A stretch of DNA of 62,795 nucleotides, from positions 1 through 62,795 of the forward strand of contig JADGPS010000006.1 of the NCBI GenBank assembly GCA_017882285.1, given 5' to 3'. The translations under genes and the position numbers were made by a program. Numbering within the stretch: the first letter of the stretch is position 1; the number at the start of each line of letters is the position of its first letter. A model generated the notes under the pieces. The model was not told where the DNA came from. It worked only from the letters and a program-made list of their open reading frames with translations, and searched no databases. This document shows positions 10,365-44,326 of the stretch, one piece after another. This stretch comes from Paludibacter sp. (lineage in GTDB: Bacteria; Bacteroidota; Bacteroidia; Bacteroidales; Paludibacteraceae).

Positions 10365-10425
10365 CCCAATTTTCTCATTAAATATAACACCCGATACTCA
10401 TTTATATTATTAGAGTCTGAATTTC

Positions 10426-10490: not shown

Positions 10491-10580
10491 TACATGAAAT
10501 ACTATATCTGATTATATTACTTCTATATTGGGGGTAAACAGATAACAAACCATTAAAAAAAACCTCTAAATTTAATAAAA

Positions 10581-16309: not shown

Positions 16310-19009
16310 ATGAAAACAAAAAAAATACTCTTTTTAGCGATGACCTTATTCGTAGGTCTTTTCACATCGCAGGCTTATGCCGATATTACCATAACTGTTG
16401 GTGGTGTAGGTGCCAATTATGCAACTTTAAAAGCCGCTTTCGATGACATTAATGCCGGAATCATTAATACCGGAGTGATTACCCTGCAGATAACCGGTAA
16501 TACTTACGAGCTAGACATAGCTACACTGAACGCCAACGGAGCAGGAAGTGCCAACGGAGTAGGAAGTGCTCTCTATAGCTATGTAAAAATTTACCCCACA
16601 GTTACAGGTCTCTCTATTAGCGGAAATCTTAGTAGCTCCCTGATAACTTTGAATGGTGCCGATAATGTGATCCTAGATGGACGGGTGCATGCTACAAACG
16701 GAAGTCTAACAGGTACGACTAGAGATTTGACCATCACCAATTCAGGTGGTACAGATCTAACCGCAGCTTATACAATTATATTAGCCTCTAATGCTCAACA
16801 CAATACAATAGAGTATTGCACCATTAAAGGATCTGGAACAAGTAGTGGCAAGGGGACAATAGCTTTTACAACATCATCATCAGACGATAATGGTAATGGG
16901 CTCAATACCATCAGCAACAACTTAATTACCAGTGCAGATACAAGACCTTACAATTCTATTTATTCAGGTGGTGGATCAGGTGTTCCAAACACCGGAAACA
17001 CTATCAGCAACAATGAATTTGCAGATTTTATGATGCCAGCAAGTATTTCAGCCGGCATATATCTTGATGGTGTATACAATACCGCTTGGATCATTTCCGG
17101 AAATAGTTTTTACGAATCTGCCCTTTTTACCACTACTGCCGCAAATTCATTTTGTGTAATACAAATAAAAGGAGGAACCGGCTATACTATCACCGGTAAT
17201 TATATAGGTGGAAGTTCTGCTTTGTGTGGAGGAAGCCCTTGGGTAAAAACAGGTAGCAATAACGTATTTATAGGTATTGCTTTGACTTTAACAGCCGGAG
17301 AGCCAGCCAGCGAAGTTCAAGGCAATATCATCCAAAACTTTGACTGGAGTAATTCAGGAACAGGTGCCTGGACAGGCATTAATATCGCGGCTGGTAATGT
17401 GAATAATACCGGCAATACGATTGGAGCTAACGATGGAACAACAGAATCCATTATCTATACAGCCGGAGCTACCGGTGGAGGTTTGAATGGATTTTCAATA
17501 CAAAGTTCATCAGCTACAGGAATTATCAATATGCAAAACAATACCATTGGTTCCATTACGGCGGGCAATGCTAGTGCAAACGCTACTAACATTTATGGGG
17601 TAAATATTAGCTCCGCAGTCACTGGGACAGTTACTTTTAACAACAATATAATTAATAATATAACTGCCAGCTCTCCCAGTACAGGGGCAGCACAATCCAT
17701 TAATGGAATTATTTATAATGCAAACGGTAATATTACCATAAGCGGTAATACGATAGCCAATCTGAACAATGCAACTACCAATACTGGTACAGTAGGCTAT
17801 TTGGTTGCTATTAAAGTTGTAAATGGAACGTATGCCATAACCAACAATATTATTCACGATTTAACTATTGCCAATGCTAATACCTCTACACCGGTTTCAA
17901 ACTCACTGTCCGGTATTATGCTTTACGGTAGCACTGCCGGTATTAATGGTAATACTAATGTAAGAACCGTAACCGGAAATACCATTTATAATTTATATAA
18001 TACCTACCCTTCGTTTGCAGGCTATATTTGCGGGATAATTTTTTATGGTGTTACAAATGGCAATGTGATTGACCATAATTTTATTTATAACTTGGGGGTA
18101 ACAGGGACTACCGGGACTACTCTTGCCACAACAGCTAAAGTGTATGGCATAAGGGCAACCGGATATGGCGGTAGTACCACCTACTCCAACAATATCATTG
18201 CCTTAGGCGGAAATACCGCCACCATTATTCATGGTATTAACGAATCAGTGACAGCCACCGTTAATAATAATTTCTATTTTAACACGGTGTATATTGGAGG
18301 CAGTTTGGCTTCGGGAGTTGTCAATAAATCGTACTGTTTAAATAGTACCGCAGCCACCAATGCACGTAATTTCAGGAATAATATCTTCGTGAATACACGT
18401 TCAACCACAAGTGGCGGAGACAGTTTGCATTACGCTGTTTGTCTTGCTGTTACCGGAGGAACGCTGACTCTTGATAATAACGATTATTATGTTAGCGGTA
18501 CAGGTGGTGTGTTAGGAAATTATGGTGGTGGTCCTACTGCTATATCATCCTTTAATTTATCAACCTTAGCTGCCTGGCAAAATGCTTCGGGTACCCCTGC
18601 CGGACCCGGACAAGATGCAAACAGTTTAGCTATTAATCCTACCTTTGCAACTGCAGGGGGAACCTTAGCTATTGATTATAAGCCATCTCCAACTGTTGCT
18701 TTACCTGGTATTGCCGGTACCGGTATTACTACCGATTATCTTGGTTCTACCAGACCGGATACTCCTAAAATGGGTGCTTTTGAAACATTAACATCTGAAT
18801 TAAAAAATGTTGAGATAACAAACGCTATCATCATTCGCAATGCTTCAGGTATTATAGTTCCGTTAAATGGTGAATCAACGATTGAGCTTTATAATGTTAA
18901 TGGTTCGTTGATCGAAAAAACGAAAGCCAACGGAACATATTCTCACAATTTGAATAACGGTATGTACATTATCTGTATCAATGGAAAAGCCTCCAGGTTT
19001 ATTAAATAA
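16310..19009 (+). CDS. Single-unit beta-helix protein with T9SS sorting tail
   Basis: 899 residues and a paralogue of the preceding gene. The signal peptide (1-24, LFVGLFTSQAYA) is almost identical. One beta-helix unit of about 800 residues ends in TTDYLGSTRPDTPKMGAFE. It lacks the Ig-like module. The C-terminal ~65 residues (IELYNVNGSLIEKTKANG to MYIICINGKASRFIK) are a type A T9SS tail. The leader, signal peptide and 3' hairpin are all copies of those around the 10581 gene, so the whole transcription unit was duplicated. Its C-terminal half is closer to unit 2 of the neighbour than the neighbour's own unit 1 is. Likely surface-exposed; function unknown. Confidence 0.85.
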   Translation: MKTKKILFLAMTLFVGLFTSQAYADITITVGGVGANYATLKAAFDDINAGIINTGVITLQITGNTYELDIATLNANGAGSANGVGSALYSYVKIYPTVTGLSISGNLSSSLITLNGADNVILDGRVHATNGSLTGTTRDLTITNSGGTDLTAAYTIILASNAQHNTIEYCTIKGSGTSSGKGTIAFTTSSSDDNGNGLNTISNNLITSADTRPYNSIYSGGGSGVPNTGNTISNNEFADFMMPASISAGIYLDGVYNTAWIISGNSFYESALFTTTAANSFCVIQIKGGTGYTITGNYIGGSSALCGGSPWVKTGSNNVFIGIALTLTAGEPASEVQGNIIQNFDWSNSGTGAWTGINIAAGNVNNTGNTIGANDGTTESIIYTAGATGGGLNGFSIQSSSATGIINMQNNTIGSITAGNASANATNIYGVNISSAVTGTVTFNNNIINNITASSPSTGAAQSINGIIYNANGNITISGNTIANLNNATTNTGTVGYLVAIKVVNGTYAITNNIIHDLTIANANTSTPVSNSLSGIMLYGSTAGINGNTNVRTVTGNTIYNLYNTYPSFAGYICGIIFYGVTNGNVIDHNFIYNLGVTGTTGTTLATTAKVYGIRATGYGGSTTYSNNIIALGGNTATIIHGINESVTATVNNNFYFNTVYIGGSLASGVVNKSYCLNSTAATNARNFRNNIFVNTRSTTSGGDSLHYAVCLAVTGGTLTLDNNDYYVSGTGGVLGNYGGGPTAISSFNLSTLAAWQNASGTPAGPGQDANSLAINPTFATAGGTLAIDYKPSPTVALPGIAGTGITTDYLGSTRPDTPKMGAFETLTSELKNVEITNAIIIRNASGIIVPLNGESTIELYNVNGSLIEKTKANGTYSHNLNNGMYIICINGKASRFIK

Positions 19010-19277: not shown

Positions 19278-19413
19278 AGTACAATTCATTATAGAATCAT
19301 AATAATTATGTTTGTGTGTAAAAGCCGATAGTCATTTAAACAGGAGTAGCTCTGTAAATTATCAAAAAAACTATCAATGTTTTTGCAGATTGTATTATCA
19401 GAGTTTAAATTTT

Positions 19414-19478
19414 TACGTTATTTGAAGAAAATTGTGCGCAATTTGTGTGAAAATAGAGTTGTCAGTGAAATACTTTTA
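19414..19478 (+). promoter_or_regulatory. Shared upstream element, copy 2, with -7-like box
   Basis: The same block as at 10426 (TACGTTATTTGAAGAAAA, then GTGCGCAATTTGTGTG, then AAAATAGAGTT) is followed at the same 57-base distance by TACTTTTA (19471-19478). Here the similarity to copy 3 extends upstream to about 19344 and downstream through the start codon. Confidence 0.7.
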
Positions 19479-19530
19479 CAATTGCATAATTCAGGAAATA
19501 AATAATTCACAAAATTGATTATACTAAATC

Positions 19531-21666
19531 GTGAAACATAGATTTAATAACTTGTTATTTCTACTGGCTGTTTTATTATCAGCCGGAAATGTGTCTTGTA
19601 AAGAAGTAGCGAGCCCTTCGATAGACACTGCTATTGTCAAAAAATTTGTATTATATGATGCGATGCATTATTCGGGCAAACCTGATTTGACCTCTGAACG
19701 TTTCTCTCGGATTGATTTGCTATATGAATCGTCTCTTACGAAGCCAGATCCAACTAATACTGCGAAGGTTATTTTGGATATAGATAAGATTAACACGGAG
19801 GCAGGATTAGCTAACTATCTTAATTCAGTTGTTTGTACGGATATCGAACAATGGTTTACCGACAGCAGCGTTAGTGGAGATGAAATGGCTAGCCGCCTTA
19901 CAACTATGTTTAACGTGTTTCGAACTAAAATCGCTGGTGTTAAAATCTGTAACTACGGTATAGCACCGTCTGCACTTTGTGTATCTCGATTTTATGACAA
20001 TGGCAACTCCACTGAAACAACGTTAATTAATAACTGGAAAGCGTCAAACGTAAAGCGATGGATATCTGCCGGTACTGTCGATTTTTTTGCTCCTCCTGTT
20101 TATATTGCCCAACCCGATATTGAATCGTGGATAAGCGATTTGAAAACAACTGTTAACGAAATAAAAACGCATGATGCTACCAAGAAAATTATTGTTTTTC
20201 TTTGGCCACAATATTATAATAAGGCAGGTAGTCCTTACTATAAACAATTTATAAATACTTCAATTTGGCAACAGATGTTGGAGGCTGTGTATACATATTG
20301 TGATGGTGCTATCATTTGGAGTTCTAATACTGACGAAAAGGAAGCAATTGTTACTTGGACTGATTCCAGAGTACAAGCAATGATGGGTGTAACCAAACAG
20401 TTCATCGCTGCACACATCGGAAATATAGATAACCCTGAAACTCAAACGTTACCAACTCCGGTTGTAACAACTCTTTGGGAAAATGGAGCTACTGCCGGTA
20501 AATTACCAGCATGGTTCTCGCCAACTTCCAGCAAAACTTATGGAATAGGTGCCGGAAACGGACATGTTTACGTCGCTACACGCGATGGAGCGAGTGGTAA
20601 AAATATTTTCGTATATAATGCCGCTTCCGGTGATTCTATTACGGCTTTGAATATGACCGGTATTACAGGTGGAACATTAGTTTTGAGTGATGTGGGTGTT
20701 ACTGAGGATGGTAAAATTATTGCTGCAAGTATGGGAAATTTTGATGCCTTTAAAATTTACATGTACAATAATGAAGCCGCTGCCCCAACATTGCTGCTGA
20801 ATCTTCCCTATGCTGATGAAGGTGGTCGTACCGGAGATTTGATTACAGTTACCGGAAGCTACGCCAATGCTACGGCGAAAATTTGGACTGCATCGGCAAC
20901 AGTACCATCTCAAATATGGGTTTTGGAAATGCAAAACGGAGTTTGGAAAACGAACCGTAGGCTAGTGGCTACAATGTCATCTAATACGACGGGTACAACT
21001 ATATCTATACCATGTGTAGCTCCTAAACCCGATGGCAGTATGTATTGGAAAGCAGGCAGTCAATCGTTATGGTTAATTAATGCCGATGCTACGGCTAATA
21101 CGGTTTCAAACAAATTATCTACTTATGCGGATGAAAATTCAATTAAATATCTGGGATACAGCTCAACATACAATTTGGATTATGTTGCATTATTTGCCTA
21201 CCGCACGGATGAATGTGCTGAAATTATATCGCTTACACCGGGTGATTTGTCTACGTGTAAGATGATTGCTCGCACGTCTTGCCTCGGTCTTAATGCAAAT
21301 GTCGGTGGTTTGGGGGATGTGGCCGTATGTTACGATGTAAACAACAATCCGATTCTTTACGTGGTAGCTGCCAATAATGGATTTGGAGCTTATAAAGTAG
21401 AAGGATTGGCATTAGATCCTACCGGAACTACCACCATGAGGTCTGTAATTGATAAAGGAAATCTCAATATTTTTCCAAATCCGGCAACGGGAGTTGTAAA
21501 TATTTCGGAAATGGCTATGAGTGTAAAATTGTTTAGCGCGTCCGGTCAATTGGTGAAAGAAGCATTTATGACTAAAGTTCTTCATGTTGAAGGACTTCAA
21601 GGTGTGTATTTAATGCAAATCGAGTCTCAAATCGGAAAGGTAACAAAACGACTTTTTGTTATGTAA
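19531..21666 (+). CDS. TIM-barrel (hyaluronidase-like?) plus beta-propeller fusion with T9SS tail
   Basis: Starts with GTG: the frame has a stop at 19525 and the next ATG is ~45 codons inside. The paralogue at 37233 starts identically. Residues 1-25 are an export signal with a Cys (SAGNVSCKE) that may or may not be lipidated. Residues ~33-295 look like a TIM barrel with an acidic pair in CTDIEQW (D104, E106), NYGIAPSALCVSRFYD, FFAPPVYIAQP and CDGAIIWSS. The D-x-E and G-x-IIW pattern recalls GH56 hyaluronidases, but this is only a hint. Residues ~305-630 form a propeller-like domain shared with the gene at 23660. The end IFPNPATGVVNISEM to KVTKRLFVM is a T9SS tail. Probably a secreted glycosidase. 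Confidence 0.7.
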   Translation: MKHRFNNLLFLLAVLLSAGNVSCKEVASPSIDTAIVKKFVLYDAMHYSGKPDLTSERFSRIDLLYESSLTKPDPTNTAKVILDIDKINTEAGLANYLNSVVCTDIEQWFTDSSVSGDEMASRLTTMFNVFRTKIAGVKICNYGIAPSALCVSRFYDNGNSTETTLINNWKASNVKRWISAGTVDFFAPPVYIAQPDIESWISDLKTTVNEIKTHDATKKIIVFLWPQYYNKAGSPYYKQFINTSIWQQMLEAVYTYCDGAIIWSSNTDEKEAIVTWTDSRVQAMMGVTKQFIAAHIGNIDNPETQTLPTPVVTTLWENGATAGKLPAWFSPTSSKTYGIGAGNGHVYVATRDGASGKNIFVYNAASGDSITALNMTGITGGTLVLSDVGVTEDGKIIAASMGNFDAFKIYMYNNEAAAPTLLLNLPYADEGGRTGDLITVTGSYANATAKIWTASATVPSQIWVLEMQNGVWKTNRRLVATMSSNTTGTTISIPCVAPKPDGSMYWKAGSQSLWLINADATANTVSNKLSTYADENSIKYLGYSSTYNLDYVALFAYRTDECAEIISLTPGDLSTCKMIARTSCLGLNANVGGLGDVAVCYDVNNNPILYVVAANNGFGAYKVEGLALDPTGTTTMRSVIDKGNLNIFPNPATGVVNISEMAMSVKLFSASGQLVKEAFMTKVLHVEGLQGVYLMQIESQIGKVTKRLFVM

Positions 21667-21698
21667 TTTTCTTATTTGTAACTCGTTAAATAATAATA

Positions 21699-21735
21699 TT
21701 TCTTGATGTTGTTTCAAGAAGCATTCTATTTGATT
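21699..21735 (+). terminator. Weak hairpin after the fusion gene
   Basis: TTCTTGA (21700-21706) pairs with TCAAGAA (21714-21720), followed by a T-rich stretch. The same flank, with altered arms, recurs at 35555-35580. Confidence 0.35.
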
Positions 21736-21892
21736 TTCGTAAAAACACATAATGGGGTCTTGAGGTTTTTTGGAAATATTTTGAGAAAAATGAATTTTTA
21801 GAACCCGCCTTTACCCGTAACAATTTATTAATATATTGTTTTGATTGTAGAGTCCTGAAAAGAAACAATTTAACTGTTAACTATTATTCGAT

Positions 21893-25073: not shown

Positions 25074-25410
25074 TTGGGGGAAATTTTTTATAGAGGCGAT
25101 ATTGCAGGAACAAGTCGTCAGCCGCATACAGCTATTGGCGTAACCCGAAAAGCAAGTTGATTTTGATGACAGTTGATGGGCGTAACTCAAATGGCAGTTC
25201 CGGTTTAACTTTAACACTTTCTTAAGTAGCCGAGTTTTTGTTGACACAGGGTGTAAAACAGTAAAATAAGTGATCAATTCAGATGGTGAAGGTTCGGTGG
25301 TCATGGTATGTACAAATGATTTACTCACCAAACCATCAAATGGCGGAAATATAGAAAGTTCTGTTCCAACTTCTGTAATTATATCAGAACAACTATACAA
25401 CTATAAATGA
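25074..25410 (+). pseudogene. Decayed phosphodiester glycosidase (NAGPA) C-terminal fragment
   Basis: Reading across at least two frameshifts and several stops gives IFYRGDIAGTSRQPHTAIGV, then LILMTVDGRNSNGSSGLTLT, then VAEFLLTQGVKQ, then INSDGEGSVVMVCTNDLLTK, then SVPTSVIISEQLYNYK and a stop at 25408. These follow the motif order of the intact gene at 21893: PRTAVG, VDGRS, LADIIKSAGASEA, NLDGGGSS, ERAVGNGLF. The catalytic DGGG region is already mutated to DGEG. The signal, N-terminal half and T9SS tail are missing. It fills most of the 504-base gap before the first susC. Confidence 0.75.
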
Positions 25411-25441: not shown

Positions 25442-28400
25442 ATGAAAAGCATGGACTTATCAAAATCGCAGTTGGGAGGTGCAAGATTTCTTGTGCTCTT
25501 AGGGATGCTGTGTTGCTCATTTTTAGTAAATGCACAAGTGAACATTCGAGGAAAGGTAATTGATTCAAACGATGAACCACTTATAGGCGTCACAGTAATG
25601 GTAAAGGGAACAAATACCGGAACAATTACCGACACAAACGGTAATTTCTCAATTTCTGTTCCCGATCAAAAATCAATATTAGTTTTTTCGTTTGTAGGAT
25701 ATAAGAAACAAGAAATTCCTGTAGGCACAAATAAACAATTGACCATACAGATGTTGGAAGAAACAGAGTTATTGGAAGAAGTGGTAGTGGTTGGTTATGG
25801 AACACAGAAACGTGCAAGTGTTACAGGTGCCATATCTACGATGTCAGACAGAGAGTTGTTGAAAGCTCCTGCAATGGGTATCACTAATGTGGTTGGTGCT
25901 CGTGTGGCAGGTGTTTCTATGTTACAGACTTCCGGTCAGCCGGGTAGTGATGCAGCTTCTTTGTTGGTTCGTGGACAAAGTGCTACTTATATTGTCGATG
26001 GTATTCAGCGCAGCTTCAATGAGATTGATCCAAATGAAATTGAATCAGTGTCTGTATTGAAAGACGCAACTTCTGCAGCTGTTTATGGTTTGGATGCATC
26101 TGCGGTTATCATCGTAACTACAAAAAGAGGTAAAGCAGAAAAGTTACGTATTAGCTATATGGGTACCTATGGTATCAGCCAGAATACACTGCAAATGAAG
26201 TGGCTGGATGGTCCCGGCTATGCTTATTGGTACAATGAGTGTCGAAAGCTGGATGATGACGAGCCTGTGTTTACTGAAACCCAAATACAAAAAATGAAAG
26301 ATGGTGTTGATGGTTGGGGTAATACTAACTGGTTCAATGAAGTGTTCGGTACAGGAACAAATACACATCATAATATAAGTGTTACCGGTGGTAACGAAAA
26401 AGTTCATTTCTTTACTTCTATTGGTACATTAAATGAAAAAGGTAATGTTGATAAATTCAACTATGATCGTTATAACCTTCGTACAAACATCGATGCCAAA
26501 ATCAGCAATAGTATTTCGATGGAAGTGGGAATTTCCGGCCGTTTTGAAGAACGTAACAGACCTAGTTACTCTGCAAATCCGGATGATTGGCATAACATTT
26601 CTGAACAAGTTGTACGTTCACAACCATTTATCCCTATAGCAATAACTTATCAAGGTAAAGAGTATTATACTTCTCCTCCAACAGACTCTAATCCGGTGAG
26701 TCCAATTGCATCTATTTATGAATCAGGCTATTATAAGATTAACGATACCTATATTCAATCAAATTTCTCATTGAAGTACGATGCTCCTTGGTTAAAGGGG
26801 TTGAGCTTCAAGTTTATGGGTGCGTATGACCTTTCTTATGAATTTACCAAAAACTTGAAAATTCCATTCAAAACAATGTTGGCGGATTTCCCAAATGCTT
26901 CAACTGAGCAAGTGAGTTATAAGATGTATACTGATAACTCCGGAAATACAACTTTGACTGAAACTGCACATAGTTCAACGAATGTGGTGACTCAATCTAG
27001 CGTCAACTTCGACAGAACATTTGATAAACATAAAATAAATGCTATTGCTTTAGCTGAAACTCGTAACCAATTTGGTAATGCTCTTGGAGCAACAGGCTAT
27101 GGTCTAGATTTCCTTGCTTTGGATGAGTTAAGCAACATTACAAATGCAACAGGTACCGGAGAGCAAAAACTGCCTTATCTAAGCGGTTATAGTTCTCAAT
27201 CCCGGGTGATTGGCTTTGTCGGTCGTTTAAACTATGATTATAGTGAAAAATATTTGGCAGAGGTTTCAATTCGCCGGGATGGAAGCTATTTATTTAACGG
27301 AATGAACGGTTCCCGTTGGGTGAATCTGCCGGCTGTATCTCTTGGTTGGAGAATGAACAAAGAAAACTGGTTTAATGTTGATTGGATTGATAATTTGAAA
27401 GTTAGAGGCGGCATTGGTAAGACAGCTACTTCTGCCGTCAGCCCTTATCAATATTTGGATTTGATGGGAGTATCAACAAAGCAGGTTATTATTGGCGGTA
27501 CAAGTAAGAGTATAATTTATACCTCAACTCTTGGTAATCCAAATCTGAGTTGGGCAAAATGTTTGGCATATAACTTAGGCACAGATTTTTCTGCATGGAA
27601 GGGTTTGTTAAACATTGAATTTGATGTGTTTTATAAATATCAATATGATTTGCTTTCTTCTGTCAGCGGCTCATATCCTCCTTCAATGGGTGGATACTAT
27701 TTCTCATATGAAAATAAGAACAAGATAGACTATCGTGGTTTTGAATTCACTATCAGCCATAACAACAACATCGGAGATTTTAAATATGGAGTGAAATGGG
27801 TCGGCTCTTTTGCTAAACGTAGATGGCTGTATGTGGCAAGTGATTCTCCGAATACTCCGGATTACAGAAAATTGACCGGCAAGGAGGTTGGTTCTCAACT
27901 TGGCTTTATTGCTGAAGGTTTGTTCCAATCCCAAGATGAAATTGATAATTCAGCAACAGTAGTTGGTTATAAGGTTCTTCCCGGTTATATCAAATATAAA
28001 GATAGGAACGGCGATGGTAAGATTACATACGCTCAGGATATGGGTTATGTTGGTAAAAGTGCTTATCCTAAATTCCAATCTTCATTGGACTTGAACGCTA
28101 ACTGGAAAGGGTTTGATTTTGATGTCTTGTTCCAGGGTGCTTTGGGAAGTACTGTCGCTTTGACAGGTGTTTATACTGAAGATTATTCGGTTGGTGTAAT
28201 GGATAATACTACATATACAACTATGTTCTTCCACTTTGGTAACTCTCCAACTTTTTTGCCGGAGAATTCATGGACCCCGGAACATAAAAATGCAGAATTT
28301 CCTCGTTTGTCCTTGGTTCCTATAAGTAAAAATAACGCTTTTGCCTCTACTTTCTGGTACAAATCAGGAGATTATCTACGTTTGAAAACATTCCAAATTG

Positions 28401-28591
28401 GCTATTCTTTGCCTCAACAAATGATCAAGTTTTTGGGCGTCAATAATTTTAGATTCTATGTTGAAGGTTCAAATATATTGACGTTCAGTGGACTTACAAA
28501 ATATAACATTGACCCTGAGCAACCGGGTGTGAATAATGGATACTATCCACAACAAAGGACTTTCTCTTTGGGAGTTAATTTAACATTGTAA
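25442..28591 (+). CDS. SusC/RagA-type TonB-dependent outer-membrane transporter (PUL 1)
   Basis: 1049 residues. Signal at ~1-32 (LLGMLCCSFLVNAQ). A carboxypeptidase-regulatory-like beta-sandwich follows (IRGKVIDSNDEPLIGVTVMV, ~33-110), then the SusC linker EEVVVVGYGTQKRASVTGAI, the plug domain with LLVRGQSATYIVDGIQR and VLKDATSAAVYG (~120-230), and a 22-strand barrel. The end NNGYYPQQRTFSLGVNLTL has the terminal aromatic-rich strand. It imports an oligosaccharide bound by the SusD partner 12 bases downstream. The preceding stretch holds a decayed NAGPA gene, so this PUL may once have had a second phosphodiester glycosidase. The substrate cannot be read from the sequence. Confidence 0.95.
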   Translation: MKSMDLSKSQLGGARFLVLLGMLCCSFLVNAQVNIRGKVIDSNDEPLIGVTVMVKGTNTGTITDTNGNFSISVPDQKSILVFSFVGYKKQEIPVGTNKQLTIQMLEETELLEEVVVVGYGTQKRASVTGAISTMSDRELLKAPAMGITNVVGARVAGVSMLQTSGQPGSDAASLLVRGQSATYIVDGIQRSFNEIDPNEIESVSVLKDATSAAVYGLDASAVIIVTTKRGKAEKLRISYMGTYGISQNTLQMKWLDGPGYAYWYNECRKLDDDEPVFTETQIQKMKDGVDGWGNTNWFNEVFGTGTNTHHNISVTGGNEKVHFFTSIGTLNEKGNVDKFNYDRYNLRTNIDAKISNSISMEVGISGRFEERNRPSYSANPDDWHNISEQVVRSQPFIPIAITYQGKEYYTSPPTDSNPVSPIASIYESGYYKINDTYIQSNFSLKYDAPWLKGLSFKFMGAYDLSYEFTKNLKIPFKTMLADFPNASTEQVSYKMYTDNSGNTTLTETAHSSTNVVTQSSVNFDRTFDKHKINAIALAETRNQFGNALGATGYGLDFLALDELSNITNATGTGEQKLPYLSGYSSQSRVIGFVGRLNYDYSEKYLAEVSIRRDGSYLFNGMNGSRWVNLPAVSLGWRMNKENWFNVDWIDNLKVRGGIGKTATSAVSPYQYLDLMGVSTKQVIIGGTSKSIIYTSTLGNPNLSWAKCLAYNLGTDFSAWKGLLNIEFDVFYKYQYDLLSSVSGSYPPSMGGYYFSYENKNKIDYRGFEFTISHNNNIGDFKYGVKWVGSFAKRRWLYVASDSPNTPDYRKLTGKEVGSQLGFIAEGLFQSQDEIDNSATVVGYKVLPGYIKYKDRNGDGKITYAQDMGYVGKSAYPKFQSSLDLNANWKGFDFDVLFQGALGSTVALTGVYTEDYSVGVMDNTTYTTMFFHFGNSPTFLPENSWTPEHKNAEFPRLSLVPISKNNAFASTFWYKSGDYLRLKTFQIGYSLPQQMIKFLGVNNFRFYVEGSNILTFSGLTKYNIDPEQPGVNNGYYPQQRTFSLGVNLTL

Positions 28592-28602
28592 TTTAAAAAA
28601 TA

Positions 28603-30216
28603 ATGAAAAAGATATTTAAAATAATGATTTTGGCTACTATGGTAGCCGGATTCAGCAGCTGTAATGACTGGCTGGATCTTACCCCTACAGATAGTCTATC
28701 CAGTAAGGTTGTTTGGGAGGATGAATCTAGTGTCGATATGTATGTAAATGGATTTTATACCTATTTGAATAAATATGGTCAATTTGGATCTCTTCAGTTT
28801 TCCGGTAATCTTACCGAAGGCTTGACAGATGCTTTCAAATATAGTTCTTATGCGTTAGGCAACAAATCCGGTAACTCTAATAACTATGTATTCAATCCAA
28901 GTGTAATTTCATCTGCCGGTTGTTTATATAGTTGCTGGAGTGATGCTTATGAACAAATTAGACGGATGAACCAGTTCTTGAATTCAATGGAGAAATATTC
29001 AACTTTCTCTGTTGAACAAAATACGAAATGGGAGGCTCAGACTCGTTTCTTTCGTGCATTTGTCTACTTCCAGTTGGCAAAACGACACAAGGGGGTGATT
29101 CTTTATACAAGTCTTGATGAGATGAAGAAAGACAAGGCACGTAGTTCAGAAGAGGCAACCTGGGATTTGATTGAATCGGATTTGGATTATGCTATAGAGC
29201 ATCTTCCTGAATCATGGACATCTTCCGATAAAAATCGTGTTACTAAATATGCTGCTTTAGCATTCAAATCACGCGCCATGTTATATGCTGAACGTTGGCA
29301 AAAAGCTTACGATGCTGCGAATGAAGTAATAAACTCTAAAATCTATGAGTTGGTTAGTAATTACTCAAATGCATGTGCCGGAAATAACAAAGAGGCCATT
29401 TTAGAATTTGATTATAATCTTTCCGGACCATATCATACTTTTGATCAAGACTACTGTCCGCTAAGTGATGGTTATCAATCCGGAGGATTTGGTACTCCCA
29501 CTCAGGAAATGGTGGAATGCTATGAAAAGACTGACGGTACTAAAATGGACTGGACTCCATATCATTCAGCAACAGCAACTCGTCCACCTTACGAAAATCT
29601 TGAACCTCGTTTTCAATCTTCCATCATTTATCCGGGCTGTACTTGGAAGGGTCATGTAATGGAGAACTCGGTAAATGGAAGCTATGGTACGTTTATGGCT
29701 TATAGATCACAACCATATATGACCGGATATACTACTACTGGCTACTATTTGAGAAAATTGATAGATGAGTCCCATATTGAACTTAATGGAGTTTACAGTA
29801 CTCATCCGTGGGTGGAAATTCGCTATGCAGAAGTTCTTTTGAACAAAGCAGAAGCAGCTTACAGATTAGATAAAATAGGTGAGGCTCAGAGCGCTATGAA
29901 TGAAATTCGTGCCCGCGTTAATCTTCCTGAGAAATTCACAACCGGTGCGGTATGGTTCAATGATTATAGAAACGAACGTAAAGTTGAGTTGGCTTATGAA
30001 GGACAATTGTTCTGGGATATGCGTAGATGGAAACTCGCTCATATCGAGTATAACGGCTATCGTTGCCATGGTTTTAAGATCACCGGTACTAATTACGAAT
30101 ATATTGACGTTGACTACCAAGATCGTAAGTTCTTGGAAAAAACTTATATTCTACCTATTCCTGATAGTGAATTACAGAACAATTCTCTAATGCTTCAATA
30201 TGATGAATGGTTATAA
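28603..30216 (+). CDS. SusD/RagB-type surface glycan-binding lipoprotein (PUL 1)
   Basis: 537 residues with lipoprotein signal MKKIFKIMILATMVAGFSSC (Cys20). DWLDLTPTDSLSSKVVW opens the mature part, as is usual. TPR-like helices lie in the N-terminal half, with WEAQTRFFRAFVYFQLAK near residue 145. The C-terminal signature EIRARVNLPEKF, then DYRNERKVELAYEGQLFWDMRRWK, then YILPIPDSELQNN, is classic SusD. It forms the lid of the SusC transporter. It starts 12 bases after susC, and the next gene begins 21 bases after its stop, forming one operon. Confidence 0.95.
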   Translation: MKKIFKIMILATMVAGFSSCNDWLDLTPTDSLSSKVVWEDESSVDMYVNGFYTYLNKYGQFGSLQFSGNLTEGLTDAFKYSSYALGNKSGNSNNYVFNPSVISSAGCLYSCWSDAYEQIRRMNQFLNSMEKYSTFSVEQNTKWEAQTRFFRAFVYFQLAKRHKGVILYTSLDEMKKDKARSSEEATWDLIESDLDYAIEHLPESWTSSDKNRVTKYAALAFKSRAMLYAERWQKAYDAANEVINSKIYELVSNYSNACAGNNKEAILEFDYNLSGPYHTFDQDYCPLSDGYQSGGFGTPTQEMVECYEKTDGTKMDWTPYHSATATRPPYENLEPRFQSSIIYPGCTWKGHVMENSVNGSYGTFMAYRSQPYMTGYTTTGYYLRKLIDESHIELNGVYSTHPWVEIRYAEVLLNKAEAAYRLDKIGEAQSAMNEIRARVNLPEKFTTGAVWFNDYRNERKVELAYEGQLFWDMRRWKLAHIEYNGYRCHGFKITGTNYEYIDVDYQDRKFLEKTYILPIPDSELQNNSLMLQYDEWL

Positions 30217-30236
30217 AAAATAAAAAAATAAACGCA

Positions 30237-31895
30237 ATGAAAAATAAATTTTTATTATTGATAGCTATTGCTTTCATGTTTTTTGGAATGAATAGTTGCC
30301 AAAAGGTAGCGGACTTGACTCCTTCTGTTTCGCGCAAGGGGATTAATAGTTTTACAGCATCTTTCGTTAATGATGAAAGACCTGAAAATGCATTCGCCAG
30401 TGAAGTAGACTCTGTAAATAAAATTATTACTGTTGTATTCCCCTATAATTACCCAAAAGATTCAGACACGGTTTTGACTATAAGTGATTTAACAAAAATA
30501 AGGGTTGTCGCAAACTTGGATGATAATGTGACAATTTCTCCAGCTATCTTGTATATGGACTTTACAAAGGACAATTACATTACTGTAACTGATCAAGCTA
30601 AAAATAAGAAAATATATCGGGTAGTCGCAGAAATTCGAAAAAGTAGTGAGTGCGCAATTACAAACTTTGAACTGACATCTTTGGGTTTAAGCGGGATCAT
30701 AAATGAGAATAGCAAAACAATTTTTATTACTTCAATTGATCCAATTGGTTCTGCTTTGGCTAAAGTAAGTGTATCTCATGGTGCTGTCATGCAGCCGGAC
30801 CCAACAAAAGTGGCTTTGAATTATAACGATGATGTAGAAATAACTGTAACTGCTCAGAATGGAACAACCTCATCTGTTTATACGGTGAAGAGAACAATTC
30901 CTCCCAAAAGAGACTTCGGTATGCGTTCAGGAAGTGCTAAAATTCTTTGGGTTAAAAAATTAAATACAGACCTTGGAATTAGTGTCCTTGATAAGACTAC
31001 CGGCATTGCTGTAACAAAAGATTATGTAGTAATTAATACCAGAGGTCAAAACAGCATCTACCTGGATAATAAGACATGCGCAATTGCCGGCACTGTTAAT
31101 TTGGGTGCCTGTGTAGGTGATTTGATCAACTTCTACAATACTTGTGATGACAATGACAATATTTTGTTATGTAATCTTGCTTCTTCGAACACGCCGTTCA
31201 AGATTTGGAAAATTAAAGGTGTGACCGGAACTCCGGAAGCGTTTATCGAATGGAACTGCGGTGTGGCAATGGGATATAAATTTTCTATAAAAGGCAGTAT
31301 TGATGGTGATGCAATTATAACAGCTCCATACAATAATGGTGATATGAAATTTGCACGTTGGCAGGTAAAAAATGGAATTCTTCAATCACAAACTCCGGAT
31401 ATTATTACAACAGCTGCAACTACTGCAGGCTGGTGGAGACGCTGTGACATCGTTTATACTGATCCGACAAATTTAAATAGCGATTATTTTGTAGCAGGCT
31501 ATGCTCTTCCTCGTAAGTTTGCATGGATGGATGGTACAACTCATACAGCTAAAGCTTATGGTCCTGTTATCAGTTCTAGCTGGATTTTATGTGCAACAGA
31601 CTATGTTGTATTCAATAAGTCGCATTATGCAGTACATAATACCGTTAACTCATTTACCTATGATATGGACGATCGAATCTATCTGTACGATGTAAGTACG
31701 CTATCTGGTCTTAATGCTAATGTATGGAATGCTCCTAAGGGTATATACGGAGGTAAAGAAAATGGCGGTCAGAATAAAGATGGTGGTGGTGATGTTGCGT
31801 TGAAAGTTTCAGACGATGGATATTTTATGTACTTGTACTTCATGTTTACTAACGGATGTGTAGTTTGTGTACGGTTTGACTGTTTTGATATATAA
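30237..31895 (+). CDS. Surface lipoprotein with DUF5018-like domain and propeller-like C-terminal half
   Basis: I start at ATG 30237 (MKNKFLLLIAIAFMFFGMNS, Cys at 21), which gives a good SpII signal; an upstream in-frame start at 30207 overlaps susD. Residues ~28-215 hold two related beta modules (ITNFELTSLGLSGIINENSK; VEITVTAQNGTTSSVYTVKR), resembling DUF5018 from memory. Residues ~225-552 resemble a blade-like domain: KILWVKKLNTDLGI, GIAVTKDYVVINTRGQNS and GLNANVWNAPKGIYGG. They are distantly like the propeller of the T9SS proteins upstream. In SusCD operons this position is taken by SusE/F-type surface glycan-binding proteins, the most likely role. Confidence 0.75.
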   Translation: MKNKFLLLIAIAFMFFGMNSCQKVADLTPSVSRKGINSFTASFVNDERPENAFASEVDSVNKIITVVFPYNYPKDSDTVLTISDLTKIRVVANLDDNVTISPAILYMDFTKDNYITVTDQAKNKKIYRVVAEIRKSSECAITNFELTSLGLSGIINENSKTIFITSIDPIGSALAKVSVSHGAVMQPDPTKVALNYNDDVEITVTAQNGTTSSVYTVKRTIPPKRDFGMRSGSAKILWVKKLNTDLGISVLDKTTGIAVTKDYVVINTRGQNSIYLDNKTCAIAGTVNLGACVGDLINFYNTCDDNDNILLCNLASSNTPFKIWKIKGVTGTPEAFIEWNCGVAMGYKFSIKGSIDGDAIITAPYNNGDMKFARWQVKNGILQSQTPDIITTAATTAGWWRRCDIVYTDPTNLNSDYFVAGYALPRKFAWMDGTTHTAKAYGPVISSSWILCATDYVVFNKSHYAVHNTVNSFTYDMDDRIYLYDVSTLSGLNANVWNAPKGIYGGKENGGQNKDGGGDVALKVSDDGYFMYLYFMFTNGCVVCVRFDCFDI

Positions 31896-31971
31896 TTGTA
31901 TTTTATTACAATGGTTCGTTATAAAATTAAGCAGATTATTTACTACTTTTTAGAGTCGACTCAAATATATA

Positions 31972-32085
31972 TTTTTAAAATCAGGTACTTCTGATGTTGC
32001 TTTTGTCTGTACAAACACAATAGTTAAAGAAAACAAATTGATAGTAAAACATTTACAAATTACCTTTATGCTAAATAAAAATAAA
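31972..32085 (+). pseudogene. 3' remnant of a DUF5017-type lipoprotein gene
   Basis: Translating 31972-32064 gives FLKSGTSDVAFVCTNTIVKE, then NKLIVKHLQIT. This matches the last ~31 codons of the intact gene at 43259 (FLKSGTYDVAFVCTNATVKE, NKSIVKHFQIT) with five differences. A one-base loss relative to that gene removes the stop, so the frame runs on into the following lipoprotein gene. The rest of the DUF5017 gene is absent. Confidence 0.85.
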
Positions 32086-33405
32086 AATTATTTCGTGATC
32101 TTGGTTTTGTCTTTATTGCTGATTCAGTCGCATTCGTGTAAAGGAACAAACCAGCCTGTCCCTGATTGGGAATGGAAAGATACTGTTACGGAATTATTAC
32201 CTGTAAGCCAAAAACCCAAAATTTTATGGATTGATGCCTCCGCTAATTTTAAGTATTTTGCCAACAGCCAAGAAAATATTCAACTTTATCTGGAAAAAAC
32301 TAAAAATGCCGGCTTTACCGATATTATTGTCGATGTACGCGGAACGTCCGGCGATGTACTTTACACAAGCAATATCGTTAATCAAATCACCAAAATGGTT
32401 GATACGGAACGGACAGCGACATGGGATTACTTAGCTGTATTTATTGAAAAAGGACATGCCTTGGGATTGAAAGTACATGCAAATTTCAACACTTTTGTCG
32501 GAGGAAATACAAGCAATTCCGGTGTAGTGTATCGCGAGCCGGCAAAAGCTCAATGGCTTACCATTATGAACCTGCCCGGTTTACAAGGCATGATGAGCAT
32601 TATGAACGATGGCAACAGTGATGTTAAATTTTTTAATCCTTTGAATGCGGATGTACAAAAGTATGTACTAAGCATTATCAGCGAACTGGCAACAAATTAT
32701 GATTTAGATGGCATTGTACTTGACCGTTGCCGTTTCGACAATATTGAATGCGATTTTAGTACTTATACTCGTGAAAAATTTGAAACATATATTGGAAAGA
32801 AATTGATCACTTATCCTGACGATATTTTCAGATGGAACACAACTCCCAATGCAGATGGAACTTATTCACGCATTGATGGACCCTATTTTAAACTTTGGCT
32901 TGAATTCAGGGCAAAAGTAATTCATGATTTTGTTGAAAAATCCAGAAATACTATTAAAGTCATTAATAAGAATATTAAATTTGGAATTTACACCGGATCA
33001 TGGTATTCCACGTATTACAACGAAGGCGTCAATTGGGCAAGTCCAAGATATGATCCATCAAAAGAATACAGCTGGGCAACAACCAATTATAAAAACTACG
33101 GCTTTGCCGATTTACTTGACTTCTACATGACAGGTGCTTACTGTAAAATAATTTATGGTTCAGAAGGATGGACAGTTGAGCGTGCTCTTGAAGTGGCACA
33201 AGAAGTAATAAAAGGAGATGTCCCGGTTTGCGGAGGTTTATATGGATTATACTTTAATAATGCACCAAAAGATTGTGAAAATGCCGTTTATGTTTGCTTA
33301 ACAGAATCAAACGGACTAATGTTTTTCGACATGAGTCATTTAATTAAGTACAATCAATGGGATAACGTAAAAGCAGGAATTGACCGTGCAATGGAAACTC
33401 AATAA
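32068..33405 (+). CDS. Lipoprotein with GHL10/family-10-like glycoside hydrolase TIM barrel
   Basis: The start is ATG 32068, giving MLNKNKNYFVILVLSLLLIQ and a lipobox Cys in SHSCKG; a TTG at 32038 in the same frame lies in the DUF5017 remnant. The mature part resembles putative GHL10 glycosidases: ILWIDASANF, AGFTDIIVDVRGTSGDVLY, KVHANFNTFVGG, LDGIVLDRCRFDN with the conserved Asp-Arg pair, GIYTGSWYSTYYNEGVNW and FADLLDFYMTGAYCK. About 446 residues in the mature plus signal form. The product probably acts on the cell surface on the substrate of PUL 1. Its start codon and first residues derive from remnant sequence of another gene. Confidence 0.78.
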   Translation: MLNKNKNYFVILVLSLLLIQSHSCKGTNQPVPDWEWKDTVTELLPVSQKPKILWIDASANFKYFANSQENIQLYLEKTKNAGFTDIIVDVRGTSGDVLYTSNIVNQITKMVDTERTATWDYLAVFIEKGHALGLKVHANFNTFVGGNTSNSGVVYREPAKAQWLTIMNLPGLQGMMSIMNDGNSDVKFFNPLNADVQKYVLSIISELATNYDLDGIVLDRCRFDNIECDFSTYTREKFETYIGKKLITYPDDIFRWNTTPNADGTYSRIDGPYFKLWLEFRAKVIHDFVEKSRNTIKVINKNIKFGIYTGSWYSTYYNEGVNWASPRYDPSKEYSWATTNYKNYGFADLLDFYMTGAYCKIIYGSEGWTVERALEVAQEVIKGDVPVCGGLYGLYFNNAPKDCENAVYVCLTESNGLMFFDMSHLIKYNQWDNVKAGIDRAMETQ

Positions 33406-33462
33406 TAAACGAATATAAAAATTTCTGTTTTTAATCCGATTTTTTATTTATAATTGTTTAAA

Positions 33463-35334: not shown

Positions 35335-35462
35335 AATTAGTTTCGGAGTTTTTTTTATTTGTTGTTATTTTTACGACGTATGTTGATTGGTTCACAGCAT
35401 AACTAATCGAATAATTTGGATTTTCTTTACTATAATTTATCAATGTTTTAAAGTTTATTTGT

Positions 35463-35600
35463 ATGAAAAAAATTACTTTACGGAAAGGTAACTAAACGTT
35501 TTGTTGTTAAGTAATTTTCTTATTTACAGTTGATTAAATAAACAATGCCTCTTGATGTTGTTTCAAAAGGCGTTATATTTGATATTCTTACAAAAAAGAA
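35463..35600 (+). pseudogene. Deletion scar of a T9SS-tail gene
   Basis: ATGAAAAAAATTACTTTA (35463-35480) is the start of an MKKITL-type signal, as in the genes at 23660 and 58642. It is joined directly to the last codons of a T9SS tail in another frame: GKVTKRFVVK and TAA at 35512. The following ~85 bases copy the 3' flank of the 19531 gene (TAATTTTCTTATTT, then CTTGATGTTGTTTCAA). Everything between signal and tail is lost. Confidence 0.75.
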
Positions 35601-35634
35601 TTGAATAATGCTTGGACATTAAATTATTTTTCAT

Positions 35635-35907
35635 GAGTATTCATTTACATACCTAAGTAAAAATTCAAACTTCTATGTCAAATTAAAAAATATTGAAATT
35701 GAACACAAGCCAGAAATAATACCAAAAGACAAAGTGAATGAGATGTTGCCTTGGGTGCATATTGTGATAAGCAATGCCAAACGTTTATTGTTGAATATTT
35801 ATCACGATGTGGAACCGCAATACCTGCAAATCTATTTCAATAAGTTTTTTGATAAGTATAAATCATGTTTTTTGATGAAAAAATATTTATATGAAGGTTT
35901 TATTTAG
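35635..35907 (+). pseudogene. IS1595-type (ISXO2-like) transposase C-terminal remnant
   Basis: 90 codons in one frame read YLSKNSNFYVKLKNIEIEHK, then LPWVHIVISNAKRLLLNIYH, then VEPQYLQIYFNKFFDKYK, then a divergent tail and stop at 35905. LPWVH-I-ISNAKR with -YLQ-Y-NEF is the C-terminal hallmark of ISXO2-like DDE transposases of the IS1595 family. The N-terminal zinc-finger and most of the catalytic domain are missing and no terminal repeats are seen. It overlaps the first codons of the hydrolase gene. Confidence 0.82.
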
Positions 35908-37051
35908 AATATTTTTTATTTTATGTGTTTTATTCTTTATTTCCGAAAATTTACAATCGCAATGTCAAATAAATTCTTTGGATTGTGAGAAGAAATGGAA
36001 TAAAATTGAACCTTTTTTTACCCCTCCGGATAAGTATAAAGGTATATTTGGTAACTATCGTTCGCCATTACTATTTTATAATGGAGATATTGTAAAAACA
36101 TCACAAGATTGGGACAAAAGGCGAGAAGAAATTCTGAATCGTTGGAGCGATATGTTGGGGAAATGGCCTCCGCTGATCGAAAATCAAGAAATGACGATTT
36201 TAGAAACGATAAAAAGAGAAAATTTTATTCAGCATCATATCAGGTTTTGGTGGACACCCCTTGAGCAAACAGATGCTTATCTGTTAATCCCTAATGAAAA
36301 AGGGAAAAAACCGGCTGTCATTACCGTTTTCTATGAACCCGAAACCTCCATCGGATATGGAGATAAACCTAATCGCGATTTTGCATATCAATTGGCAAAA
36401 AGAGGTTTTGTTACACTTTCCTTAGGAACGAGAAAAGCAACAAAAGATAAAACTTATTCTATTTTTTATCCGAACATTGAGCATGCTCAAGTAGAGCCTC
36501 TTTCGATGTTAGCATGTGCCGCGGCAAATGCATGGGAACTTCTGTCTAAAATTGATGATGTTGATTCTACGAGTATCGGAATTGTAGGGCATTCTTTCGG
36601 CGGGAAATGGGCCATGTTTGCATCTTGTTTATTCGATAAGTTTGCATGTGCTGCTTGGTCTGATCCAGGTATTGTCTTTGATGAGTCTCGTCCGAATGTA
36701 AATTATTGGGAACCTTATTATTTAGGATATCATTCTCCCCCTTGGAGAAAAAGAGGCATTATTAACAAAGATAATCCGTCACAGGGTTTATACCCAAAAT
36801 TAGTTAAAGAGGGTTACGATTTGCACGAATTACATGCTTTGATGGCACCTCGGCCATTTCTTGTTTCAGGAGGTTCAGAAGATCCACCAGAACGTTGGAT
36901 TCTATTAAACAGTATCATCGCAGTCAATCAATTATTGGGTTTCAAAAATCGAGTAGCAATGACAAACCGTCCAGAACATTCTCCGAATGCAGAGTCTAAT
37001 GAGCAAATTTATCTGTTTTTTGAGTTTTTTCTGAAAAATAAATGTGAGTAG
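35891..37051 (+). CDS. Exported alpha/beta hydrolase, esterase-like
   Basis: 386 residues with a signal peptide (FRIFFILCVLFFISENLQSQ). The alpha/beta-hydrolase nucleophile elbow is GHSFGGKWAMFA (Ser in G-H-S-F-G). YLLIPNEKGKKPAVITVFYE and RDFAYQLAKRGFVTLSLGTR precede it; the acid is probably in SGGSEDPPERW, and the His in NRPEHSPNA. The overall pattern resembles the acetyl-xylan/glucuronoyl esterase-like group. It may strip acyl groups from a glycan in the periplasm. The first codons lie in the IS1595 remnant, and the stop TAG is the first part of the duplicated cassette that follows, so both gene borders sit on rearrangement junctions. Confidence 0.78.
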   Translation: MKVLFRIFFILCVLFFISENLQSQCQINSLDCEKKWNKIEPFFTPPDKYKGIFGNYRSPLLFYNGDIVKTSQDWDKRREEILNRWSDMLGKWPPLIENQEMTILETIKRENFIQHHIRFWWTPLEQTDAYLLIPNEKGKKPAVITVFYEPETSIGYGDKPNRDFAYQLAKRGFVTLSLGTRKATKDKTYSIFYPNIEHAQVEPLSMLACAAANAWELLSKIDDVDSTSIGIVGHSFGGKWAMFASCLFDKFACAAWSDPGIVFDESRPNVNYWEPYYLGYHSPPWRKRGIINKDNPSQGLYPKLVKEGYDLHELHALMAPRPFLVSGGSEDPPERWILLNSIIAVNQLLGFKNRVAMTNRPEHSPNAESNEQIYLFFEFFLKNKCE

Positions 37052-37115
37052 CTTTGTAAATTATCAAAAAAGTTATCAATGTTTTTGTAGATTATTTTTT
37101 CTGAGTCTAACTTTT

Positions 37116-37180
37116 TACGTTATTTGAAGAGAATTGTGCGCAATTTGTGTGAAAATAGAGTTGTCTGTGAATTAAGTTTA
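37116..37180 (+). promoter_or_regulatory. Shared upstream element, copy 3, with -7-like box
   Basis: TACGTTATTTGAAGAGAA, GTGCGCAATTTGTGTG and AAAATAGAGTT (37116-37162) are followed 57 bases from the block start by TAAGTTTA (37173-37180). It belongs to the duplicated cassette 37046-38130 and precedes a GTG-start gene, as copy 2 does. Confidence 0.7.
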
Positions 37181-37232
37181 CAGTTTGATAATCCATGTAA
37201 TAAATAAATCTCAAAATTAACTATACTAAATT

Positions 37233-38159
37233 GTGAAACTTAGATTTAATACCTTATTCTTTCTTCTGGCTGTTTTATTATTAGCTGGAAATGTGGCTTG
37301 TTTAGCCGGAAATGTGGCTTTTAAAGAAGTAGCGAAACCCACGAAAGACAAATTTACTGTCAAAAAATTCGTATTATATGATGCGATGTCTTATTTGGGC
37401 AAACCTGATTTGACCTCTGACGGTTTCTCTCGGATTAAGGTTCTGTATGAAGCACATCTTACGAAACCAGATCCAAATGATAATACGAAGGTTATTTTGG
37501 ATTTGAATAAAATTAATAAATTGGCTGCGGAAGATGAATATTCTAATTCTACTGTAATTTGTACAGATATAGAACAGTGGTTTAACGACAGGAGTGTTAG
37601 TGGAGAAGAAATGGCTACCCGCTTTACAACTATGTTTAAAGTGTTTCGAGATAAAATAGCTAATGTTCAAATCGGTAACTATGGTATAGCACCATCTGCA
37701 CTTTGTGTCTCTCGATTTTATGACAATGGTAAAACCGATGAAAAAACGTTAATTAACAACTGGAAAGCGTCAAACGAAAAGCGATGGGCATCTGCCAATA
37801 CTGTTGATTTTTTTGCTCCTACTGTTTATATTGCTGAACCCAATATTGACTCGTGGATTAACGATTTGAAAATAACTGTTAAAGAAATAAAGGCACATGA
37901 TGCTGCCAAGAAAATTATTGTTTTTCTTTGGCCACAATATTATGATAAGAAAGGGAGTCCTTACTATAAAAAAGTTATTGCCCCTGAAATTTGGCAACAG
38001 ATGTTGGAGGCCATCTATGAAAATTGTGATGGTGCTATAATTTGGAGTGGTACTATTGATGCTATTAATTGGGATGATCCCAGAGTACAAGCGATGATGA
38101 ACGTAACAAAACAATTTATTGATTTTCATAAAGAAAACAAAGCTGTTTTTATTAAGTAA
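37233..38159 (+). CDS. Stand-alone TIM-barrel (hyaluronidase-like?) exported protein
   Basis: 308 residues; GTG start, placed like that of the 19531 paralogue. The signal region contains a short duplication (LAGNVACLAGNVAF), with a possible lipobox Cys in the first copy. The mature part matches residues ~30-295 of the 19531 protein: KFVLYDAM, ICTDIEQWFND (D112, E114), NYGIAPSALCVSRFYDNG, VDFFAPTVYIAEPNIDSWIN, IIVFLWPQYYD and CDGAIIWSG. The propeller and T9SS tail are absent, so it probably stays periplasmic or lipid-anchored. The conserved acidic pair suggests glycosidase activity, but no assigned family can be stated. It stands just upstream of PUL 2. Confidence 0.72.
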   Translation: MKLRFNTLFFLLAVLLLAGNVACLAGNVAFKEVAKPTKDKFTVKKFVLYDAMSYLGKPDLTSDGFSRIKVLYEAHLTKPDPNDNTKVILDLNKINKLAAEDEYSNSTVICTDIEQWFNDRSVSGEEMATRFTTMFKVFRDKIANVQIGNYGIAPSALCVSRFYDNGKTDEKTLINNWKASNEKRWASANTVDFFAPTVYIAEPNIDSWINDLKITVKEIKAHDAAKKIIVFLWPQYYDKKGSPYYKKVIAPEIWQQMLEAIYENCDGAIIWSGTIDAINWDDPRVQAMMNVTKQFIDFHKENKAVFIK

Positions 38160-43258: not shown

Positions 43259-44155
43259 ATGAAACCATATTTCAATTTAATGATTTTATTGTCTGTTTTT
43301 TCTTTGATTTCATGCAATCATGATTTGGATGTGTCAACACCAAATTTTGAAATTTCTGTTCAGGATAAAAATTTTATAGTTGGAGATACTGTTGTGTTTA
43401 ATTTTACAGGAGAAGCTGATTATGTTACATTCTATTCAGGAGAAACTGGACATCAAAATGAATTTCGTGACAGAATATCTCTTACAGGAGGAGCTTCAAT
43501 ACTGCAATTTACGTCTTATTTACAAAACGGAAATCAAAGAGATTCACTAAGATTATTAGTATCTACTGATTTTAAGGGGACTATTGATAGTACTCTCGTA
43601 AATTATCATTGGGTAGATATAACAGATAGAGCAATTTTATCTACCGGTATAGACAACACTCCTTCAGGGCAAATTGATCTTTCTGCTTTTATTTCTGAAA
43701 AGCCTGCATATATTGCGTTTAAATATGTGGGAAAGTCTAATGATTTGCAACCGCAGGAAACCTGGACAATAAAAAACCTAAGTATTAACTATAAAATAGA
43801 TAGTTTAAATGTTTTCCCTATTGTAAGTTCAATAGGAGACGCTGGTTTTATTAGTTGTGATTTAAAAAACCCTCTGAAAAAATGGACTCAAACTGCCACA
43901 CAAATTCAAATGGCTGGAGGAGCAGCAAAAACTGCTGATAATATTGATTGGATTATAATAAAACCATTAATTTTAAATCAGGTAACCCCAGATATAGGCG
44001 TTGCAATTATGGGTATTTCTTCAAAGATTGACCATTTTAATTATGTGTTTTTAAAATCAGGGACTTATGATGTTGCTTTTGTCTGTACAAACGCAACAGT
44101 TAAAGAAAATAAATCGATAGTAAAACATTTTCAAATTACTGTTAATGCTAAATAA
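43259..44155 (+). CDS. DUF5017-like surface lipoprotein (PUL 2)
   Basis: 298 residues; signal with Cys19 (VFSLISCNHDLDV). The opening TPNFEISVQDKNFIVGDTVV followed by FNFTGEADYVTFYSGETGHQ is a PKD-like N-terminal module typical, from memory, of DUF5017. DIGVAIMGISSKIDHFNYVF and TYDVAFVCTNATVKENKSIV close the protein. It stands in the SusE/F position and is expected to bind glycan on the cell surface. Its final ~31 codons have a decayed copy at 31972 in PUL 1. Confidence 0.8.
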   Translation: MKPYFNLMILLSVFSLISCNHDLDVSTPNFEISVQDKNFIVGDTVVFNFTGEADYVTFYSGETGHQNEFRDRISLTGGASILQFTSYLQNGNQRDSLRLLVSTDFKGTIDSTLVNYHWVDITDRAILSTGIDNTPSGQIDLSAFISEKPAYIAFKYVGKSNDLQPQETWTIKNLSINYKIDSLNVFPIVSSIGDAGFISCDLKNPLKKWTQTATQIQMAGGAAKTADNIDWIIIKPLILNQVTPDIGVAIMGISSKIDHFNYVFLKSGTYDVAFVCTNATVKENKSIVKHFQITVNAK

Positions 44156-44326
44156 AATTAAAATAATTATTATTTACCAATGTTTTGTACTAAATAGATT
44201 TGCTTGATTAGTAAGAAAAACAATTAAAAATAAGTAACATGTTTTCTGTTTCTATCAGGAAATGAGAACTAAAAGGTTGGGTCAATGATCCGGGTTGTTA
44301 ACTACATACCAATAAATTACATCCCA

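Follow-up and report, generated by a model that had tools for sequence, protein, structure and literature searches.

How does a gene that has lost its own beginning come by another? The question is raised by a gene for a lipoprotein with GHL10 and DUF4985 domains in the window, by which is meant the whole 62,795-nucleotide stretch of Paludibacter sp. DNA analysed here. Both Pfam scores exceed their cut-offs (82.7 bits against 27.9 for GHL10, 103.4 against 39.3 for DUF4985), and the gene is preceded by SusC, SusD and DUF5018 genes, as in most relatives. An earlier note proposed that the start codon and first residues of this lipoprotein derive from the end of a DUF5017 gene that decayed where it stood. 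The derivation itself is supported by comparison with relatives, and what has to be explained is how such an end came to lie in front of this gene. The features on which the argument turns are collected in Table 1.

Table 1 Features of the locus. G24 (G024:C39) is the contig of orthologue L033, from Paludibacter sp. UBA5753; G456 belongs to another family.
Feature	Position	Strand	Evidence
Decayed 3' remnant of lipoprotein gene 64228, which is intact before SusC in G24	25080..25395	+	
Resident 5' part of SusC1 (roughly codons 1-120), orthologue in G24	25442..25800	+	
Putatively imported block: rest of SusC1, SusD1, DUF5018	25801..31896	+	Nucleotide homology with G456
Junction DNA between block and patch, 66 nt	31897..31962	.	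No second match in own genome
Patch, copy of DUF5017 gene 3' end	31963..32092	+	88% to 44039-44171
GHL10 + DUF4985 lipoprotein gene, 445 aa	32068..33405	+	Pfam GHL10 3e-23, DUF4985 1e-29; 83% aa to L033/G24
ATGCTAAATAAA, start codon and MLNK of the GHL10 lipoprotein	32068..32079	+	Identical at 44145-44156; MLNK in 0/40 other loci
Residues NKNYF	32080..32094	+	Probably patch-derived to 32092; ambiguous, as the stretch is A/T-rich
Intact DUF5017 lipoprotein gene, 298 residues; source or sister of the patch	43259..44155	+	Pfam DUF5017 E 1e-46

The remnant of a DUF5017 gene was confirmed as one arm of a direct repeat that crosses the ATG at 32068. The two copies align over 133 columns (E 8e-40), with 84% identity when compared ungapped and with 91/101 and 19/22 identical positions in the two main gap-free blocks, and elsewhere in the genome (143 contigs totalling 3.18 Mb) 31900-32110 matches nothing but the copy at 44 kb. 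The earlier note had counted 31 surviving codons; the DUF5017 tail is indeed present, but it is longer, comprising 38 codons, the letters of the stop and 16 nt of 3' flank, and its counterpart in the intact gene runs from codon 261 onward into the same 16 nt of flank. Read as protein, the patch matches DUF5017 residues 259-295 of 298 at 73% identity, the match beginning at 31957, and the DUF5017 domain is absent from it, the Pfam domain being confined to residues 18-196 of the intact protein. To the left of 31963, DNA homology to the DUF5017 copy is no better than in shuffles (p 0.60); homology to the right of 32092, or any likeness to GHL10 after 44171, is not significant (p 0.08); and DNA and protein comparison found no trace of the remainder of the DUF5017 gene beside the patch. 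A second genome bearing the patch was not found among 47 other genomes of the genus and 60 others of the family (one genome per species), in searches that scored only 13-14 first-look candidates per genome. Matches of 27-30 nt in G368, G020, G390 and G021 (E 2e-4 to 8e-4) were taken as chance, given their length and composition.

What did the patch contribute to the gene? Relative to the intact copy it lacks one base at about 32063/32064, opposite 44140, the exact base being ambiguous: the window reads ...ATTAC-CTTTATGCTAAATAAA where the intact copy reads ...ATTACTGTTAATGCTAAATAAA. The loss of this base had been held to erase the stop and to create the ATG. Neither claim is borne out, since the gap lies upstream of ATGCTAAATAAA: all twelve of these letters, ATG included, recur in the intact copy, and the TAA letters remain in the patch. 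In the intact DUF5017 gene this ATG spans the codons AAT GCT AAA TAA, MLNK lying one frame off the N-A-K-stop ending, and in the window it is the first ATG in a frame open back to 31954. The sole effect of the base loss is that the dead DUF5017 tail is brought in line with the GHL10 frame. The ATG became a start codon through being joined to a GHL10 gene without a start of its own.

That the GHL10 gene had such a start before is indicated by its relatives. The window protein begins MLNKNKNYFVILVLSLLLIQSHSC, and its orthologues L033 (83% amino acid identity), L031 and L032 (both 74%) begin MKKLSTPLILFLLLIQLISC, MKKLSIFFSIFLVINLFSSC and MKKHFCFCLILFLIIQFFSC, respectively. These three nearest distinct orthologues (74-83%) all begin MKK and carry the lipid cysteine at residue 20, compared with residue 24 in the window. 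In the protein alignment the native methionine of L033 falls on window residue 5, whose codon is AAT, and nucleotide homology with L033 extends over 32107-33427, ending 22 nt past the GHL10 stop; to the left of 32107 it is no better than in shuffles (p 0.82). As far as these alignments reach, the AAT at the methionine position and the missing native-side homology before 32107 show that the native start has been lost. MLNK can securely be assigned to the patch. The following NKNY(F) is probably patch-derived as well, and only probably because the stretch is A/T-rich, homology beyond 32079 giving a shuffle p of 0.013 for 31 nt and of 0.08 for 32080-32093 alone. Within these residues lie the two lysines, residues 4 and 6, that precede the hydrophobic core, and the signal peptide predicted from the translation consists of the methionine, the two lysines, the hydrophobic core and Cys 24. 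The residues QSHS before the lipid cysteine are, we presume, atypical of a lipobox, and given these residues export of the lipoprotein may be weak.

The DNA to the left of the patch has a different ancestry from the gene to its right. Between the window and G24, amino acid identity is 47% for SusC1, 46% for SusD1 and 34% for DUF5018, against 83% for GHL10, while between G24 and G34 the corresponding values are 82% for SusD, 81% for DUF5018 and 80% for GHL10. G456, from another family, matches the window at 76% nucleotide identity over 6137 columns (25773-31896). Given this match, rapid divergence of a single lineage accounts poorly for the low values. The GHL10 protein follows G24, not G456 (83% versus 46% amino acid identity). 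The nearest relative therefore switches sharply at both edges of the block, at about 25.80 kb, where it passes from G24 to G456 within the VVGYGTQ codons of a mosaic SusC1 (examined over 25442-26600), and at about 31.90 kb, the block ending one base past the DUF5018 stop. In nine 40-nt steps the 5' end of SusC1 is 68-85% identical to G24 and 32-62% to G456, and in 25-residue steps its identity to G24 is 68-84% in the first five and 20-68% in the later ones. The succession of DUF5018 and GHL10 is old, as GHL10 also comes next after DUF5018 in G456, G094 and G107. On G24 the gene order, named from Pfam matches of the window homologues, is an epimerase-like gene, an FAD oxidoreductase, a secreted protein, a further gene, lipoprotein 64228, SusC, SusD, DUF5018 and GHL10. 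A remnant of lipoprotein 64228, recognised by tblastn as three pieces in three frames (69-75%, E 2e-27), lies directly before SusC1 in the window and places the locus in its ancestral position.

Are DUF5017 genes ordinarily found beside GHL10 genes? Among 40 other GHL10 loci, none begins with MLNK and none has a DUF5017 match (E 0.01) within at most about 6 kb on each side, so that an orthologue with an MLNK start and no DUF5017 remnant, named beforehand as the case against this origin, is absent from them; L039 comes nearest, an orthologue at 55% that starts MINK and lacks any DUF5017 match. In these counts L004 and L005, apparently the same contigs as L033 and L031, were counted once, L062 and L067 held no methionine in the stretch read for the N-terminus, and L044-L070, Bacillota by title, served for the MLNK and DUF5017 counts only. 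A DUF5018 match stands directly upstream in 10 of the 13 Bacteroidota GHL10 loci (L031-L043), six of these matches at only 22-27% identity; the exceptions are L043, with DUF5018 about 570 nt upstream, L041, with another GHL10 gene between, and L042, with SusD. Conversely, no GHL10 match was present within flanks of about 1.5 kb at 13 loci (L071-L083), the window's own included, out of the 30 matches of a DUF5017 search; L078 ends at the contig end, and at L082 the DUF5017 match was not recovered at E 1e-4. An ancestral DUF5017-GHL10 order was rejected on these counts.

The same survey bears on the history first proposed, in which a complete DUF5017 gene decayed by mutation in place and a one-base loss made the start. 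In its favour, the end of a DUF5017 gene is present and has lost one base. The ATG, however, exists in the intact copy independently of the lost base, the rest of the DUF5017 gene is untraced, DUF5018 occupies that place in most relatives, and the patch lies at the join of a swapped block; we consider decay in place very improbable. A pasted fragment is the better reading, and a former DUF5017 resident the less probable one.

The patch lies within the 210 nt between the end of the block and the first conserved GHL10 base, a junction that is read from the sequence of a 143-contig assembly. The part of it left of the patch (31897-31962) is no more similar to G456 than expected by chance. A hairpin-like repeat seen by eye, unfolded, between DUF5018 and GHL10 in L033, L031, L032 and G456 was not seen in the window; RNA structure in 31890-32110 is less stable than in shuffles (z 0.97); and 31800-32200 holds three promoter-like sites, against 2.6 expected, and no terminator.

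We hypothesize that the block once resident in front of GHL10 gave way to a SusC(barrel)-SusD-DUF5018 block related to one in another Bacteroidales family. The left crossover would lie in the conserved VVGYGTQ stretch of SusC, which points to a probably homologous exchange. The right end would have been closed illegitimately, with a DUF5017 3'-end piece of about 130 nt as templated filler; the position of the patch in the right-hand junction of the module swap makes such patching probable. Closure would have cost GHL10 its own start and the front of its signal peptide, and the patch would have replaced the start in another frame, with ATG CTA AAT AAA and probably then AAT AAA AAT TAT, yielding MLNK(NKNY); its two lysines, placed before the hydrophobic core, would probably make up a charged signal-peptide front. 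A block swap with the DUF5017 patch in its right junction supplying the GHL10 start is, in our judgement, a probable history and the best explanation of the locus. Homologies, switch points and the absent native start were read directly from the DNA, and the order of events was inferred from them. Swap and patch may or may not have been one event, which slightly lowers our confidence in this history, and the patch may have been added after the swap. More tentatively, a single recombination may have imported SusC-SusD-DUF5018 and given GHL10 its new start and signal front in one step through a templated 130-nt filler, and such repairs may be a recurrent form of gene-start turnover at Bacteroidota module borders.

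Could the DUF5017 end have reached GHL10 before the swap? An earlier resident, a SusC2-SusD2-DUF5017 block, might have had its DUF5017 end joined to GHL10, and a G456-like block might later have replaced it, sparing only the last 38 DUF5017 codons; the recruited start is the same and the history different. That duplicated units existed is indicated by segments lying at 19-22 kb that recur, in the same orientation, at 35-38 kb. We nevertheless regard this course as rather unlikely: SusC1 retains a G24-like N-terminus and SusC2 is only 28% identical to the G24 SusC, no significant DUF5017 homology lies left of 31963, and the 13 DUF5017 loci surveyed have no GHL10 match in flanks of 1.5 kb.

Returning to the block swap with a patched junction, a further question is whether the new start is used. 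Over 30 codons the patch differs from the DUF5017 gene by two synonymous and five non-synonymous changes (dS 0.11, dN 0.074), small numbers that fit a recent copy from which selection on the protein may have gone. The GHL10 gene differs from L033 with dN 0.10 and dS 1.40 (dN/dS about 0.07, spanning time both before and after the event), and set side by side these values describe a young copy beside a long-conserved enzyme. An unconstrained GHL10 frame would be expected to hold on average 1.8, 3.0 or 4.7 stops at 3, 5 or 8% divergence; it holds none, for which the neutral probability is 0.16, 0.05 or 0.01, respectively. The frame that stayed intact after the event suggests that the new start works.

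The true start might instead lie at GTG 32095 or TTG 32038, the patch then being leader DNA only. The frame is open to 31954, and GTG 32095 has the better upstream context, at the 76th percentile compared with the 63rd for ATG 32068, the 33rd for the ATG of the intact copy and the 24th for the native start of L033. These percentiles come from a crude matrix of 93 starts, the GHL10 gene among them, and the score does not decide among starts. A start at GTG 32095 would leave the signal peptide without lysine or arginine before its core, and TTG 32038, at the 31st percentile, would put 10 dead-gene residues before MLNK, which makes a start elsewhere improbable. From the DNA we infer that translation begins at ATG 32068 and that the GHL10 protein is still exported.

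Further repeats and remnants were observed elsewhere in the window. The C-terminal remnant of an IS1595-type transposase (35659-35904; Pfam 24.4 bits, below the cut-off of 27, E 3e-5) separates the FAD gene from the next one, and at 35414-35608 sequence like the start of the secreted-protein gene stands beside sequence like its 3' flank, the middle missing; in G24 that gene follows the FAD gene whole. The segments 19344-20405 and 37046-38119 are 81% identical in the same orientation, gene start included, and 21633-21745 and 35481-35594 are 80% alike, also in the same orientation, together hinting at an old duplicated unit. The adjacent large genes at 10581-16001 and 16310-19009 share and contain repeats of 2.1-2.5 kb (74-80% identity) and a further 159-nt repeat at 92%. 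An element of about 90 nt (84-85% identity) recurs in three intergenic places (10402-10494, 19390-19480 and 37092-37179), each copy preceding a gene whose start is signal-like, and is perhaps a shared leader or promoter.

Start sites vary between orthologues, but seldom can one see the change by which they shift; in this locus the sequence still displays donor, acceptor, frame and both switch points. The locus suggests that a gene's 3' end, read out of frame, can provide a start and the front of a signal peptide ready for use. For annotation it is also a warning: a protein's N-terminal residues may be the legacy of some other gene, and the swap of a Sus-type block can alter the gene adjoining it.

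How does this locus compare with known systems? In domains, size and SusC-SusD-DUF5018 neighbours, the window gene resembles other GHL10/DUF4985 lipoproteins downstream of DUF5018; unlike all 40 other GHL10 loci, it has both a DUF5017 fragment before it and an MLNK start. SusC-SusD modules are exchanged between polysaccharide utilisation loci, and here too a SusC-SusD-surface-protein block appears to have been exchanged whole, with a mosaic SusC as the result, but in the window both edges can be located and one coincides with the place where the following gene had its 5' end rebuilt. For adjacent prokaryotic genes, PMC3887535 describes start-codon replacement that elongates the downstream gene at its 5' end; point mutations in two living neighbours were simulated there and ended in overlap. 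As there, a disrupted start appears to have been replaced by one that lies within the upstream gene's DNA and is read in another frame than that gene; unlike that case, the donor here is a 3' fragment pasted in where recombination joined the DNA, and the upstream reading frame is dead. No matching published case was recognised among the titles and abstract openings of the literature listed. The event is of a known kind and is unusually legible.
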